From contig NZ_JYNX01000062.1 of assembly GCF_001044255.1 (NCBI RefSeq), forward strand, positions 19,866 through 83,865: a stretch of DNA of 64,000 bases, written 5' to 3'. The stretch is from Mycolicibacterium chubuense (lineage in GTDB: Bacteria; Actinomycetota; Actinomycetes; Mycobacteriales; Mycobacteriaceae). Below, piece by piece: positions 41,771 to 47,451 of this stretch (position 1 is the stretch's first letter; each line of letters opens with the position of its first letter). The notes under the pieces were generated by a model. It was given only the letters and a program-made list of their open reading frames with translations, made no database searches and had not been told where the DNA came from. Both the position numbers and the translations under genes were made by a program.

Positions 41771-41803
41771 ACTTGAGTATGCCCTTACGTCCGGGTGTTC
41801 CAT
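41771..41803 (+). promoter_or_regulatory. MerR-type promoter/operator, copy 1
   Basis: Starts with ACTTGAGT and continues ATGCCCTTACGTCCGGGTGT; 22 of the first 28 bases equal those of copy 2 at 44882. TTGAGT serves as -35 and a 19-bp spacer, the hallmark of MerR-controlled promoters, leads to a poor -10 (TTCCAT). The element begins exactly 39 bp before the GTG of the first S9 peptidase, as in copy 2. Confidence 0.65.
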
Positions 41804-41809
41804 GGCGGG

Positions 41810-44119
41810 GTGACGACCGACGACGCGACCCAGGTGACGGATTCCGACTACGCCCGCGCCGAGCAGATGCTGGCTCCGTACCGGGCGCGGCGGGTGCCCG
41901 GAAGTGCGGTGACACCCCAGTGGCTCTCCCAGGGCAGCCGGTTCTGGTATCAGGTCGGCGGCCGCTTCGTCGTGGTCGATCCGGGTGAGGGCACCCGCCG
42001 CGACGCGTTCGACCACGACCGGTTGGCCGCCGCCCTGTCCGCGGCCTCGGGACACGCGGTGACCGCCGGGGATCTGCCCATCACCGCGGTCGAGATTGCG
42101 GAGTCGATCGAATTCACCGCCTTCGGGTCGCGGTGGCGGTGGTCGGACAGCACAGGCACGTGCACGCCGCTGGACGACGCGCCACCGGCTGTCCTCGGCG
42201 GGGTGACGTCCCCGGACAAGGAGTGGGTGGCGTTCGGGCGGGACGGCGACATCTGGGTCCGGCGGGCAGGAGCGAAGCGACCCGGGGAATCGGATCGGCG
42301 GGCAGGAGCGAAGCGACCCTCGGACGACGTGGAGGAATTCCGTCTCACCGACGATGCCGAGCCGCTGTTCGACTACGGCGGAGTCCCGGACGCGACCGGG
42401 GCGAGAGCGCTGATGCGAATGCTCGGCCTGCCGCCGCTGTTCCACGTGTCGTGGTCACCGGACTCGACCCGAATCCTGGCGCAGCGCATCGACCAACGTG
42501 ACCTGCCCGAGTTGGTGCTCGTCGAGTCCGCCCCCCGCGACGGCGGCCGCCCGGTGGAGCACCGCACCCGCTACCCGATGGCCGGGGAGGAAGCGCAGGC
42601 GACGATGTCCTGGACCGTCCTGGACGTCGACTCGCGCACCGTCGTCCGCCAGCAGCACGAGCCGGTGGCGATCACGCACCCGACCGCCATCGTCTATGCC
42701 TGGTGGTCCGGAAAGTCCGGGGAGGCGGTGCACTTCCTGCACCAGACGCGCGATGCCCGCACCCTGGAGCTCCGTCGACTCGACCCGACGTCCGGTGAGA
42801 CCACGACGGTGCTCACCGAGACCGGGCAAACCCGGGTCGATCCGACCCCGCAGCTGGGCGAACCGGGAATGGTGCGGGTGCTGGAGTCCGGGGAGATCCT
42901 GTGGTGGTCCCAACGTGACGGCTGGGGACATCTCTATCTGTACTCGGCCGACGGCCGGCAGGTCACCCAGGTCACCATGGGGCAGTGGCTGGTACGCAGC
43001 CTGCTGTGGGTCGACGAAGACCGGCGGCAGGTGTGGTTCCTGGCCGGCGGCCTCCTCGAGCACGACCCGTATGTGCGCCAGATCTGCCGAATCGATCTCG
43101 ACGGATCCGGGTTCACCCGATTGACCGACGACCACCTCGACCACGACGCCGTGAGTCCACCCGAGGGTGGCTACATCGTCGACCGGGCCTCGACGTCGAG
43201 CCGGCCGCCTCACTCGGTGGTGCTGGACGGCGACGGAAAGGTCCTCGTCGAGCTGGAATCCCCCGGCACGCAGCAATTGGAGGCCCTCGGTTGGAGTCCG
43301 CCCGAACGGTTCCGGGCCACCGCGGCCGACGGGAAGACCCCGATCTACGGCCTGCTGTGGCGGCCGCACGGGTTCGACCCGCAGCGCCGCTACCCGGTGA
43401 TCGAGCACATCTATCCCGGGCCGCAGAACTTCCGGGCCGGTCCGTCGTTCGACGAGCCGCACTTCGGTGAACCGGAAGCGTATGCCGCGCTGGGTTTCGC
43501 CGCGGTCGCGATCGACGGGCGCGGTACTGCGGGGCGCAGCAAAGCCTTTCACGACCACTCCTACGGTGACCTGGGCAACGCCGGCGCCTTGGACGACCAC
43601 ATCGCCGCGATCCGCGAACTGGGACACCGGTATCCCTGGCTCGACACGAGCCGGGTCGGGATCACCGGCCAGTCCGCAGGCGGTTTCGCCGCCGCCCGCG
43701 CGGTGCTGCGGCATCCCGAGTTCTACCGGGTCGCCGTCGCGGTCTCCGGCAATCACGACAACGCGGTGAACCTGGCCATGTGGGCGGAGAAGTACCACGG
43801 CGACCTCAGCGACGAGGGCAAACAGGCGATCTCGAATGTGCCGCTGGCCGGCAATCTGCAGGGAAAGCTGTTGCTCATCCACGGTGAGCTCGATGACAAC
43901 GCGCACCCGTACCACACCATGCGACTCGTCGATGCCCTCATCGAAGCGGACAAGGACTTCGACATGGTCATCATCCCCGGAGCCGAACACGCCCTGATCG
44001 GGCGCATGCATTACCTGTACCGCCGCACCTGGGACTACTTCGTCCGGCACCTGCACGGCACCGAGCCGCCCGGCTATCGCCTGGCGCCGCTGCCGCTGCC
44101 GGGCCTGTCAGCGGGCTGA
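41810..44119 (+). CDS. S9 family peptidase 1 (DPP IV-type)
   Basis: 769 residues. N-terminal beta-propeller (about 1-510) and C-terminal alpha/beta-hydrolase. Catalytic Ser in 'RVGITGQSAGGFAAARAVLR', Asp in 'LLIHGELDDNAHPYH', His in 'IIPGAEHALIGRMHYLY'. 'IYPGPQNFRAGPSFDEPHFG' leads into the catalytic domain. DPP IV-type enzymes clip dipeptides from N-termini; substrate here unknown. No signal peptide. The propeller carries an in-frame tandem 36-nt repeat. GTG 41810 chosen because the shared MerR-type element sits at the same distance from it as from peptidase 2; GTG 41795 is possible. 3' end overlaps the MerR gene by 12 nt. Confidence 0.9.
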   Translation: MTTDDATQVTDSDYARAEQMLAPYRARRVPGSAVTPQWLSQGSRFWYQVGGRFVVVDPGEGTRRDAFDHDRLAAALSAASGHAVTAGDLPITAVEIAESIEFTAFGSRWRWSDSTGTCTPLDDAPPAVLGGVTSPDKEWVAFGRDGDIWVRRAGAKRPGESDRRAGAKRPSDDVEEFRLTDDAEPLFDYGGVPDATGARALMRMLGLPPLFHVSWSPDSTRILAQRIDQRDLPELVLVESAPRDGGRPVEHRTRYPMAGEEAQATMSWTVLDVDSRTVVRQQHEPVAITHPTAIVYAWWSGKSGEAVHFLHQTRDARTLELRRLDPTSGETTTVLTETGQTRVDPTPQLGEPGMVRVLESGEILWWSQRDGWGHLYLYSADGRQVTQVTMGQWLVRSLLWVDEDRRQVWFLAGGLLEHDPYVRQICRIDLDGSGFTRLTDDHLDHDAVSPPEGGYIVDRASTSSRPPHSVVLDGDGKVLVELESPGTQQLEALGWSPPERFRATAADGKTPIYGLLWRPHGFDPQRRYPVIEHIYPGPQNFRAGPSFDEPHFGEPEAYAALGFAAVAIDGRGTAGRSKAFHDHSYGDLGNAGALDDHIAAIRELGHRYPWLDTSRVGITGQSAGGFAAARAVLRHPEFYRVAVAVSGNHDNAVNLAMWAEKYHGDLSDEGKQAISNVPLAGNLQGKLLLIHGELDDNAHPYHTMRLVDALIEADKDFDMVIIPGAEHALIGRMHYLYRRTWDYFVRHLHGTEPPGYRLAPLPLPGLSAG
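42260..42319 (+). repeat. In-frame tandem repeat in S9 peptidase 1
   Basis: Two identical 24-mers (42260-42283 and 42296-42319) with a 36-nt period, containing GGCAGGAGCGAAGCGACC. They encode RRAGAKRP twice, a basic insertion in an otherwise acidic propeller region between 'DIWV' and 'VEEFRLTDD'. It looks like a mobile mini-repeat that entered the gene in frame. Confidence 0.75.
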
Positions 44120-44857
44120 GTCGGCGCCGGTCTCGTTGGCGCGCATGATCTCCTGCGATCGACGGAGCACATCGAGTTGCGCTTCGTTGTACAGCTCCGA
44201 CATGGCCTCGGCGATCGTCTGGTCGGCGAAGCGCTCCCCTCTGGGTGCGTCCACGCGCAACTCGCGGAGGCCCGGGTGTGCCGCATGAAGCGCGCGGATG
44301 TAGGGGACGAGCAGTTCGGCCATCTCCTGGCGCGTGGCGTCATCGGCGTCGGGCCCCAGGTCGTCGAACGCCGCGATCGAGGGTTCGTCGGGCGCGTTCT
44401 GGATCAGGTCGGCATAGACCTGCAGACCCCGCGGGCCCAGCACCCGGGTCAGGACGACGACGAGAGAGCGGTCGGCGTCGGTCATCTTGGCCACCGCGTC
44501 CGCTGGGACGAACTCCGGCGGCAGGTCGGTGGGCGCGGACTGCTCGAGGATCAGCGCGAGTTCGTTTCGCGCCTGCTGGAGCCGATCGATGCTGGCCGCG
44601 AGTTCTGCGTCGAGGTCCCGTAGCGCCTGCTCGGGATGATCGTCGGTATCGCCCATCGCGGCGATCTGGGGAAGCGAGAAACCCAGGTCGGTGAGTCGCT
44701 TGATACGCACCAGCCGGACGAGGTGCGCGACGCCGTACTCCTTGTACCCGTTGCTGCGGCGGTCGGGTTCGGCGAGCAGGCCGACCTGGTGGTAGTGCCG
44801 CACCGCCCGCACGCTGGTGCCTGCCAGCTCGGCGACTTCGCGGGTGCTCCATGCCAC
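44108..44857 (-). CDS. MerR-family regulator
   Basis: 249 residues. N-terminal winged helix 'STREVAELAGTSVRAVRHYH' and 'QVGLLAEPDRRSNGYKEYGV', followed by 'HLVRLVRIKRLTDLGFSLPQ'; then the dimerisation coiled coil (about residues 75-110). The C-terminal 130-residue helical effector domain is without metal-binding cysteines, so it senses an organic ligand or peptide rather than a metal. It lies between two S9 peptidase genes and is divergent from the second, 63 bp away. Both peptidase genes have the same 19-bp-spacer element upstream, so this protein probably controls both and possibly itself. GTG start by homology. Confidence 0.92.
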   Translation of the reverse strand: MAWSTREVAELAGTSVRAVRHYHQVGLLAEPDRRSNGYKEYGVAHLVRLVRIKRLTDLGFSLPQIAAMGDTDDHPEQALRDLDAELAASIDRLQQARNELALILEQSAPTDLPPEFVPADAVAKMTDADRSLVVVLTRVLGPRGLQVYADLIQNAPDEPSIAAFDDLGPDADDATRQEMAELLVPYIRALHAAHPGLRELRVDAPRGERFADQTIAEAMSELYNEAQLDVLRRSQEIMRANETGADSAR

Positions 44858-44881
44858 TGCTTCATTGTCCACAGCCGGTCG

Positions 44882-44914
44882 ACTTGACTGTGCCGCAGCG
44901 TCCGAGTGTGTCCT
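44882..44914 (+). promoter_or_regulatory. MerR-type promoter/operator, copy 2
   Basis: Starts ACTTGACT and continues GTGCCGCAGCGTCCGAGTGT. TTGACT as -35, 19-bp spacer, TGTCCT as -10. It begins 39 bp before the ATG of the second S9 peptidase and lies in the gap between that gene and the divergent merR gene, so merR can autoregulate from here. Confidence 0.68.
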
Positions 44915-44920
44915 GGAGTC

Positions 44921-46813
44921 ATGGCAACACGCGAACACCTCTCCGTCGAGGACTTCTTCTCCCCGCCCACCCGTACCCAGGCCACGATCTCCCCGGACGG
45001 CACCCGGATCGCCTACCTGGCGCCGTGGAGGAACCGTCTGAACGTGTGGGTCGAGGATGTCGATTCCCGGCGCGCCGCGCGCTGCGTCACCGCCGACGAG
45101 ACCCGCAGCGTGATCGACTACCGGTGGACCGACGATCCGCGGTGGCTGCTGTACACCCAGGACAACGGCGGCGACGAGAACTGGCACATCTACCGCGTCG
45201 ATCTGGACGACCCCTCGGCGCGCGCCGCCGACCTCACACCGTTCCCCGGCGTCAGAACGTACTTCGAGCTGCTGCCCGGATGCCCTGGCAAAGCGATGGT
45301 CGGAATGAACAGGCGGACGCCCGAACTGGTCGACGCCTACGAACTCGACATCGCCACCGGCGAATTGACGCTGCTGGCCGAGAACCCGGGAAAGGTCGCC
45401 GGATGGTTCCCGAGCCGCACCGGTGATCTGTTCGCCTTCTCGTTGACTCCCGGCGGCGACGTCGAGCTGTCGACGTGGGACGCGCCGCAGCAGAGCCTGC
45501 GCTGCCTCGCGGTGTACGACGGCGCCGACTACACACTGAGCATCTGGCCGATGATGGCCACGCCCGACGGTAAAGGCCTGTGGCTCGGTTCGAACCGCCA
45601 CCCGGACAGAACAACGCTGGTGCGTCTGGACGTCGCGACCGGCGAGGAGACCGACGTCGACGGCCATCCGACCCTCAGCATCGACCCGATGGGGGCTCTC
45701 GCCCCCGTGCTACCGCAACCGCTGATCCTGAGCCAGCGGACCGGCGATCTGCTCGCAGTGCGCTATCTCGGCGAGCGACAGGTGATCCGCGCCCTGGATC
45801 CGCAGTTCGCCACGGTACTCGAGAACCTGGAGAACCTGTCCGACGGCGATCTGGCCAAGGTCTCGTCGGACGACAGCGGGCAGCGCTGGGTGGTCAGCTT
45901 CAGCCACGACCGCGAGCCTGGGGTCACCTTCTACTACGACCACAGCACGGGCGAGAGCCGGGAACTGTTCCGGCCGTTCCCGCATCTGAATCCCGAGGCG
46001 CTGGCGACGATGAGCCCGGTCACCATCCGGTCTCGCGACGGACTGGATCTGCATTCGTACCTGACGCGGCCGACGGGCGTGCCCGGCCCGGCGCCGCTGG
46101 TTCTTCTGGTGCACGGCGGGCCGTGGGCGCGCGACACCTGGGGTTATCAGCCCGACGTGCAGCTGCTCGCCAACCGCGGATACGCGGTGCTACAGGTCAA
46201 CTTCCGCGGATCGACCGGTTACGGAAAGGATTTCGTCAAAGCGGCGATCGGCGAGTTCGCGGGCAAGATGCACGACGACCTCATCGACGGCGTCACCTGG
46301 GCGGTCGAGCAGGGCTACGCGGATCCCGAACGGGTCGCGATCTTCGGCGGCTCCTACGGCGGATACGCCGCGCTGGTCGGGGTCACCTTCACCCCGGAGG
46401 TGTTCGCCGCGGCCATCGACTACGTGGGCATCTCCAGCCTGGCGAACTTCATGCGGACGCTTCCCGTCGTCGCGCGACCGCACCTGGCCAACAACTGGCA
46501 CCTGTTCGTCGGTGACCCCGACATACCGGAGCAGGAAGCGGACATGCTGGCGCGTTCCCCGATCACCAAGGTGGACCGGATCCGCACACCGCTATTGGTT
46601 GTCCAGGGCGCCAACGACTCTCGGGTCGTGCAGGCGGAGTCCGACAACATGGTCGGAGCGCTGCGCGCGCGGGGCGTCGATGTCGAGTACATGGTCAAGG
46701 ACGACGAGGGTCACGGATTCCTCAACCCCGACAACGTCATCGACCTGTACCGTGCCGTCGATCGCTTTCTCGCCGAGCACCTGGGCGGGCGGCCGGAAGG
46801 ACACGCGGCATGA
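44921..46813 (+). CDS. S9 family peptidase 2 (prolyl oligopeptidase/acylaminoacyl-type)
   Basis: 630 residues. N-terminal beta-propeller ('FFSPPTRTQATISPDGTRIA', 'DNGGDENWHIYRVDLDDPSA') and C-terminal hydrolase: 'LVLLVHGGPWARDTWGYQPD', nucleophile 'VAIFGGSYGGYAALVGVTF' (GGSYGGY, typical of acylaminoacyl peptidases), Asp in 'VVQGANDSRVVQAESD', His in 'DEGHGFLNPDN'. Cytosolic by absence of a signal. Shares its promoter element with peptidase 1 and overlaps the next gene as ATGA. Probably degrades short or blocked peptides in the same pathway as peptidase 1. Confidence 0.93.
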   Translation: MATREHLSVEDFFSPPTRTQATISPDGTRIAYLAPWRNRLNVWVEDVDSRRAARCVTADETRSVIDYRWTDDPRWLLYTQDNGGDENWHIYRVDLDDPSARAADLTPFPGVRTYFELLPGCPGKAMVGMNRRTPELVDAYELDIATGELTLLAENPGKVAGWFPSRTGDLFAFSLTPGGDVELSTWDAPQQSLRCLAVYDGADYTLSIWPMMATPDGKGLWLGSNRHPDRTTLVRLDVATGEETDVDGHPTLSIDPMGALAPVLPQPLILSQRTGDLLAVRYLGERQVIRALDPQFATVLENLENLSDGDLAKVSSDDSGQRWVVSFSHDREPGVTFYYDHSTGESRELFRPFPHLNPEALATMSPVTIRSRDGLDLHSYLTRPTGVPGPAPLVLLVHGGPWARDTWGYQPDVQLLANRGYAVLQVNFRGSTGYGKDFVKAAIGEFAGKMHDDLIDGVTWAVEQGYADPERVAIFGGSYGGYAALVGVTFTPEVFAAAIDYVGISSLANFMRTLPVVARPHLANNWHLFVGDPDIPEQEADMLARSPITKVDRIRTPLLVVQGANDSRVVQAESDNMVGALRARGVDVEYMVKDDEGHGFLNPDNVIDLYRAVDRFLAEHLGGRPEGHAA

Positions 46814-47451
46814 CCGAGACGCAGACCACCGGACAGGAGCCGACGCTGCTCGAGCGGATGGGTGGAGTTTCCGGGCTCGTCTACGCCAGCATCCCTCCGG
46901 TCGCCTACGTCATCGTCAACACGATCGCGGGACTCGTCCCGGCGATCGTGGTGGCCATCGGCGCGAGCGTGGGCCTGATCCTGTTGAGAGTGCTGCGCAG
47001 AGAACCGATCCAGCCGGCTGTCTCCGGATTGCTCGGGGTCGCCGTGGCGTCGTTGATCGCGATCTACACCGGGTCGGCCGAGGGCTACTTCCTGCCCGGC
47101 ATCTGGGTGAGCCTCGTTCTGGCCGTGGTGTTCTCGGCTTCGTTGGTGGTGCGACGACCGTTGGTGGGAGTGATCTGGAACGCGCTGACCAGCGCGGGCG
47201 AGCGGACGGCGTGGCACACCGACAGGAGCACTCTGCGGGCGTTCGACGTGGCGACGGCGGCGTTCGCCGCGGTCTTCGCCGCGAGGTACGTCGTCCAGGA
47301 CTGGCTCTACGACGCAGGGTCGGTCGGCGGGCTGGCATTCGCACGGATCGCGATGGGCTACCCCTTGCTCGCGTTGGCACTTCTGGTGACCTACTGGGCG
47401 GTCCGCCGCGCTCGTGGAAGACTCCAGTCCGCGGCCGGCCCAGGCGGGTAG
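46810..47451 (+). CDS. DUF3159 membrane protein
   Basis: 213 residues with five or six transmembrane helices (about 30-50, 58-72, 82-98, 100-118, 165-180, 185-205). 'TLLERMGGVSGLVYASIPPV' and 'VRRPLVGVIWNALTSAGERT' are typical of the actinobacterial DUF3159 family. Function unknown. The ATG overlaps the S9 peptidase stop as ATGA, so it is expressed with it; it might export or import peptides related to the peptidases, but this is a guess from context only. Confidence 0.82.
   Translation: MTETQTTGQEPTLLERMGGVSGLVYASIPPVAYVIVNTIAGLVPAIVVAIGASVGLILLRVLRREPIQPAVSGLLGVAVASLIAIYTGSAEGYFLPGIWVSLVLAVVFSASLVVRRPLVGVIWNALTSAGERTAWHTDRSTLRAFDVATAAFAAVFAARYVVQDWLYDAGSVGGLAFARIAMGYPLLALALLVTYWAVRRARGRLQSAAGPGG

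Follow-up and report, generated by a model that had tools for sequence, protein, structure and literature searches.

We propose that the merR gene studied here encodes an activator that induces a regulon of exopeptidases against a peptide-like ligand, an explanation to which, as a whole, we give a probability of roughly 0.8. Its parts differ in firmness. The operator, the membership of the regulon, the promoter spacing and the position of the start codons are well supported by sequence comparison. Activation by distortion of the DNA is what we infer by analogy with the MerR family, and it is only the gene content that points to a peptide nature of the ligand and to a role in detoxification. 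Since the targets are exopeptidases and an MFS protein, they suggest a ligand that is peptide-like, whether harmful or nutritional. The finding is broader than the observation in an earlier note on this DNA, which had described two S9 peptidase genes around a merR gene with one shared promoter element.

In the proposed mechanism, a MerR dimer would sit on a dyad inside the over-long 19-bp promoter spacer. Binding of an intracellular ligand to the C-terminal domain of the protein would lead to distortion of the DNA, such that the -35 and -10 hexamers become usable by RNA polymerase. Transcription would then begin on the ATG or GTG, or no more than one base away from it, and would yield leaderless mRNAs both for pepA and for pepB-DUF3159. 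These would encode a membrane protein along with two serine exopeptidases that probably reside in the cytoplasm, and in relatives the regulon would additionally take in an MFS transporter and S15/S33-type peptidases. The regulon would most likely remove the peptide-like compound that MerR senses, perhaps a peptide antibiotic or a toxic oligopeptide. Should the ligand prove to be a natural product of peptide type, this would constitute an inducible, peptidase-based route of resistance in soil actinobacteria and mycobacteria.

The genes lie close together in the window, by which we mean the whole 64,000-nt stretch of DNA analysed. Two MerR-type promoter/operators are predicted from sequence comparison, A before pepA (41771..41809, plus strand) and B before pepB-DUF3159 (44882..44920, plus strand). 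The pepA gene (41810..44119, plus strand) is overlapped by 12 bp by the 3' end of merR (44108..44872, minus strand; 254 aa), and a divergent gap of 48 bp that contains element B separates merR from pepB (44921..46813, plus strand; ATG start). The DUF3159 gene (46810..47451, plus strand) follows with an ATG at 46810 that overlaps the pepB stop codon as ATGA. The identities given to these genes in the earlier note were borne out, as Pfam confirmed all four, including PF11361 for DUF3159. PepA consists of DPPIV_N and Peptidase_S9 domains, the latter scoring 134.9 bits in PepA and 163.9 bits in PepB against a cut-off of 22.6. Among solved structures, PepA comes nearest to entries for dipeptidyl aminopeptidase IV (2z3w/2d5l and 5yp1), consistent with a DPP-IV-like exopeptidase, and PepB to an amino acyl peptidase (5l8s). 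From Pfam, this structure match and a tree, PepB is judged to be an S9 peptidase nearest the aminoacyl/acylaminoacyl peptidases. No evident signal sequence was seen by eye at the N-terminus of PepA or PepB. Because an in-frame GTG also exists at 41795, within the promoter, the GTG start of pepA at 41810 is a prediction.

Comparison of the two elements confirmed that the sharing is real. Element A begins at 41771, with a -35 of TTGAGT (41773-41778) and a -10 of TTCCAT (41798-41803) ahead of the GTG at 41810; element B begins at 44882, with TTGACT (44884-44889) and TGTCCT (44909-44914) ahead of the ATG at 44921. As had been claimed, the distance from the beginning of the element to the start codon is exactly 39 bp in each, and each has a spacer of 19 bp, which can be read directly in the sequence. 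The first base of the -35 is 37 bp from the start codon in each, the -35 is of TTGA type and the -10 is weak. The near-identity over 28 nt stands as well, with 21 matches instead of the 22 first counted, and 26/39 positions agree over the longer stretch. No third place in the window matched element A at 20/28 or better on either strand. With a degenerate pattern that was composed after the loci of relatives had been viewed, A and B were the only sites with up to 3 mismatches in the whole genome of 5,945,009 bases, in which the reversed control pattern had no match at the same threshold. Element B contains a dyad, ACTGTGCCGC-A-GCGTCCGAGT, with 7/10 half-site pairs; a convincing dyad was not found in element A taken alone. 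A palindromic form of the pattern matched, with up to 3 mismatches, element B and two more sites of the source genome, on contigs C29 and C8. Both were treated as chance matches: the former extends into the 3' end of an ORF on the minus strand, and the flank of the latter resembles coding sequence by eye.

The operator and its targets were followed beyond mycobacteria by a scan of genome contigs that was limited to its best 80 matches and gave a sample of 79 named loci. The genera in this sample include Mycolicibacterium, Saccharopolyspora, Pseudonocardia, Streptomyces, Nocardia and Glycomyces. Outside mycobacteria the operator approximates the palindrome TTGACYRTGCCGYNRCGGCAYRGT, and in those actinobacteria this palindromic form stands in front of merR as well as in front of genes for peptidases of the S9 and S15 families, TAP-like hydrolases and DUF3159 proteins. 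There were 108 regex matches in the 79 sampled loci, 95 of which had a gene start in a loose window: merR in 25, pepB in 24, pepA in 17, DUF3159 in 13, MFS in 3 and others in 13. A family scan of 12 of these 13 others (L169_6846 was left out) returned five TAP-like proteins (L111 and L123, both Mycolicibacterium, and L171, L180 and L182, Glycomyces), two S15 peptidases (L137, L164) and single cases of a beta-lactamase (L162), a GPP34 protein (L179) and a YbaB protein (L169); no family was matched for L171_9897 and L186. A Hydrolase_4 (S33) gene behind an element with 1 mismatch was seen in a MerR-positive genome (L102), with no ATG or GTG at +36 to +38 of that element. At the level of the order, the exact palindrome was present in 5/150 genomes, all among the 19/150 with a MerR homologue, and absent from 14 of those 19, two of which belong to this genus. 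The motif predicts targets across actinobacteria. MerR homologues with 46-56% identity were also observed on 6 of 72,556 plasmid records, from Streptomyces, Prescottella, Pseudonocardia and Tsukamurella.

These targets bear on the possibility that the regulon serves nutrition, with MerR sensing oligopeptides and the exopeptidases supplying amino acids. Such a function agrees with the gene list as well: the recurrent enzyme targets do belong to exopeptidase-type families (S9, S15 and TAP-like), and some enzyme targets outside mycobacteria have N-termini that resemble signal sequences by eye. However, the classified targets include no peptide importer, the transporter among them being an MFS protein that also matches MFS_3, and the distribution is patchy (21/148 genomes of the genus). 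We consider a nutritional function rather unlikely. The MFS match to MFS_3 was found in L029, one of the loci where an MFS gene divergent from pepA has an inverted operator-like site of its own with the start at +37 (L029 9834-11061, L038 10866, L111 13813).

The properties of the sensor were examined with Pfam and PDB profiles. Its N-terminal region is a MerR winged helix-turn-helix (PF13411, 55.5 bits; PF00376, 44.3 bits; both above cut-off), and the MerR HTH was matched in 60/60 family members scanned. In the C-terminal part of about 140 residues, none of the 60 members had a Pfam match that names a ligand domain, and PDB profile matches run from position 1 to 110 of 240 and no further. The operators show the features of the MerR class, namely the 19-bp spacer in A and B and the palindrome in relatives, with a dyad that is weak in A; spacers of 19-20 bp are given as typical of MerR promoters in a review (PMC9909328). 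The best PDB match is the DNA-binding domain of TipA (2vz4). According to the same review, TipA/TipAL of Streptomyces has a thiopeptide ligand. TipA/TipAL and SkgA (PMC7762955) are among the closest known systems, and a peptide-like ligand is plausible for this MerR too. Outside the main mycobacterial group such sites also precede merR, which suggests autoregulation as in the TipA/SkgA group. Unlike TipA, the family showed no TipAS domain when its 60 members were matched to Pfam (E 0.1), and its targets are mostly exopeptidases; membership in the TipA class was rejected on the lack of a TipAS match. The DNA-binding domain and promoter geometry are shared with the metal-responsive proteins CueR, MerR, CadR and ZntR, whereas the C-terminal domain here is long and no metal gene is among the classified targets. 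Assignment to the metal type was also rejected, as the NCBIfam models scored below their cut-offs (for example, 48.5 versus 150.85 bits for MerR).

Comparison can also be drawn with the multidrug activators BmrR, BltR and Mta, which share the long-spacer promoters and, in relatives, a transporter among the targets. A general xenobiotic or stress regulator in the style of BmrR, BltR or TipA would use the hydrolases together with the MFS and DUF3159 proteins to act on diverse small molecules that are not peptides. The recurrence of MFS and DUF3159 proteins as targets and the presence of the TipA and Mta DNA-binding domains among the PDB matches are in keeping with such a regulator. Yet the family differs from BmrR, BltR and Mta in having no known drug-binding effector domain by Pfam, its main enzyme targets here are peptidases, with serine peptidase families the most frequent of these enzymes, and the TipAS domain is missing from the matches of the 60 members. 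A xenobiotic function for non-peptide compounds appears doubtful to us, and the activator of exopeptidases against a peptide-like ligand remains our preferred explanation.

In a more far-reaching form, which we put forward tentatively and at somewhat less than even odds, the protein would represent a new family of MerR sensors in actinobacteria, set apart by an effector domain of a distinct type. It would couple peptide natural products to a dedicated arsenal (DPP-IV-like and acylaminoacyl S9, S15 and TAP-like S33 exopeptidases, plus MFS and DUF3159 proteins) as inducible resistance by hydrolysis, and in mycobacteria the operators would have lost their symmetry and merged with the start codons of leaderless genes. 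PepA and PepB resemble the DPP-IV-type and acylaminoacyl S9 peptidases in their Pfam and PDB matches; they differ from known S9 peptidases in their proposed MerR control, which was not found described among the papers listed. Likewise, no MerR-exopeptidase regulon of this kind was found among the papers listed, which for some searches were a fraction of the matches and which took in few subscription papers, and the terms "mycobacteri" and "peptidase" are absent from the main text of PMC5045206. The proposal provides a testable regulon for a MerR subfamily and a regulatory context for DUF3159, a name that occurs in just two papers of the searched literature.

The distribution of the element in the genus supports the suggestion of the earlier note that these genes form one regulon. 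MerR orthologues (E up to 1e-20) were present in 21/148 genomes, and the element (up to 2 mismatches) in the same 21, an overlap with a hypergeometric probability of 6e-26 when phylogeny is ignored. Since the pattern was drawn from upstream regions of the MerR-positive genomes' own loci, the presence of the element in those genomes is partly by construction; the independent support comes from its absence in the 127 other genomes, from copies located apart from merR and from the test across the order. Two genomes (G147, G084) matched only at 2 mismatches, and the reversed control had one match in the genus scan (G136). With up to 1 mismatch allowed, the palindromic form was found in 10/148 genomes, all within the MerR-positive 21, the match in the source genome being probably due to chance. 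pepA (E up to 1e-150) is present in 15/148 genomes, all of them MerR-positive, and 16/16 pepA copies have the element or a palindromic site. Five of these copies, in G141, G050, G088 and, twice, G092, have the element although they are separated from merR by about 90 kb or more or lie on a different contig. In one genome an additional merR/pepB pair, which is broken and has an element with 1 mismatch, was observed on a different contig from the main copy (L101 5207-6618, G119:C1).

The position of the start codon was analyzed in 71 mycobacterial element-gene pairs with distinct 220-nt contexts (pepA 26, pepB 27, DUF3159 11, MFS 3 and merR 4). An in-frame ATG or GTG occurs at +37/+38 in 67/71 pairs covering five gene kinds, and in all 26 distinct contexts of pepA. 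The exceptions are pepB of L043-L045, with the start at 61-66, and pepB of L121, for which no usable start was called. In many rows the region from +22 to +32, within the promoter, contains further start codons in frame. A T occupies the first and the last position of every -10 hexamer tallied, and the most frequent hexamers are TTGCAT for pepA (11/26) and TGCGAT for pepB (15/27). The +37/+38 offset fits leaderless starts, predicted here for the element-bearing genes of mycobacteria and suggested earlier for both peptidases; being fixed, it makes the prediction checkable to a single base. Start offsets vary outside mycobacteria, and a fixed offset seems to be a mycobacterial trait. A chance likeness or phylogenetic leftover, in place of a MerR operator, could draw on the mere 21/28 matches in the window, the weak dyad in A and a pattern derived from MerR-positive genomes, but it is scarcely credible given the absence of the element from 127 MerR-negative genomes, its copies before distant pepA genes, the fixed offset over five gene kinds and the lack of any reversed-control match in the source genome.

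The symmetry of the operators differs among mycobacterial sites. Most peptidase operators are asymmetric, with a left half of TGCCG and a right half of CGTCCGRGTGT, and the merR and MFS sites are closer to a palindrome. In one mycobacterial subgroup (L043-L046) the operator has stayed palindromic and merR, too, has a site in front of it; the late pepB start at 61-66 was seen in 3/4 of these loci.

The arrangement of genes was compared in 20 further MerR loci. pepB is divergently beside merR in 12/20, three of which (L043-L045) have it about 1.5 kb away, DUF3159 is directly divergent from merR in 6/20, and neither is beside merR in 2/20. pepA is tail-to-tail with merR in 7/20 and within the retrieved stretch in 10/20. 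Strict conservation as a block, which the earlier note had proposed to check, was rejected: the module is variable, since any of pepA, pepB and DUF3159 may be present or missing around merR. Where pepB is missing, DUF3159 itself occupies the +37/+38 position after the element. In L032, from 8944 onward, the DUF3159 frame starts with the apparent first codons of pepB, with promoter and start kept, and this junction is perhaps the scar of an internal deletion. DUF3159 homologues (E up to 1e-10) are near-universal in the genus (143/148 genomes), and the copy linked to the module is therefore an extra paralogue.

PepB is not strictly coupled to the regulator. Its homologues occur in 48/148 genomes, namely all 21 MerR-positive and 27 MerR-negative ones. 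The earlier note had held that peptidase orthologues lacking the element and merR would speak against its proposal, and for PepB this is partly the case in the latter 27/148 genomes. Of 53 PepB matches, the upstream regions of 30 were inspected and 5 had the element. It was absent in 17/17 inspected copies from MerR-negative genomes, and another 8 copies from MerR-positive genomes lacked it as well. A midpoint-rooted tree of 56 PepB rows places element-bearing PepB both on deep branches and within several groups of mycobacteria, its genera being Pseudonocardia, Saccharopolyspora, Nocardia and mycobacteria. The element label requires 5 changes on this tree, one of them perhaps an artefact, as L175 was scored as lacking an element that falls beyond the 140-bp limit used. 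With the root placed at the midpoint only, this history fits an old link to MerR followed by later rewiring.

One mycobacterial PepB clade of 20 rows is without the element, and 6 of its rows have paired TGTCACTWAGTGACA sites instead. In L204, L207-L210 and L215, six rows that form one clade, PepB lies behind paired inverted repeats of the TGTCACTTAGTGACA type, which are probably the operator of a different regulator. A TTGACG-like -35 is located near these repeats in several of the six.
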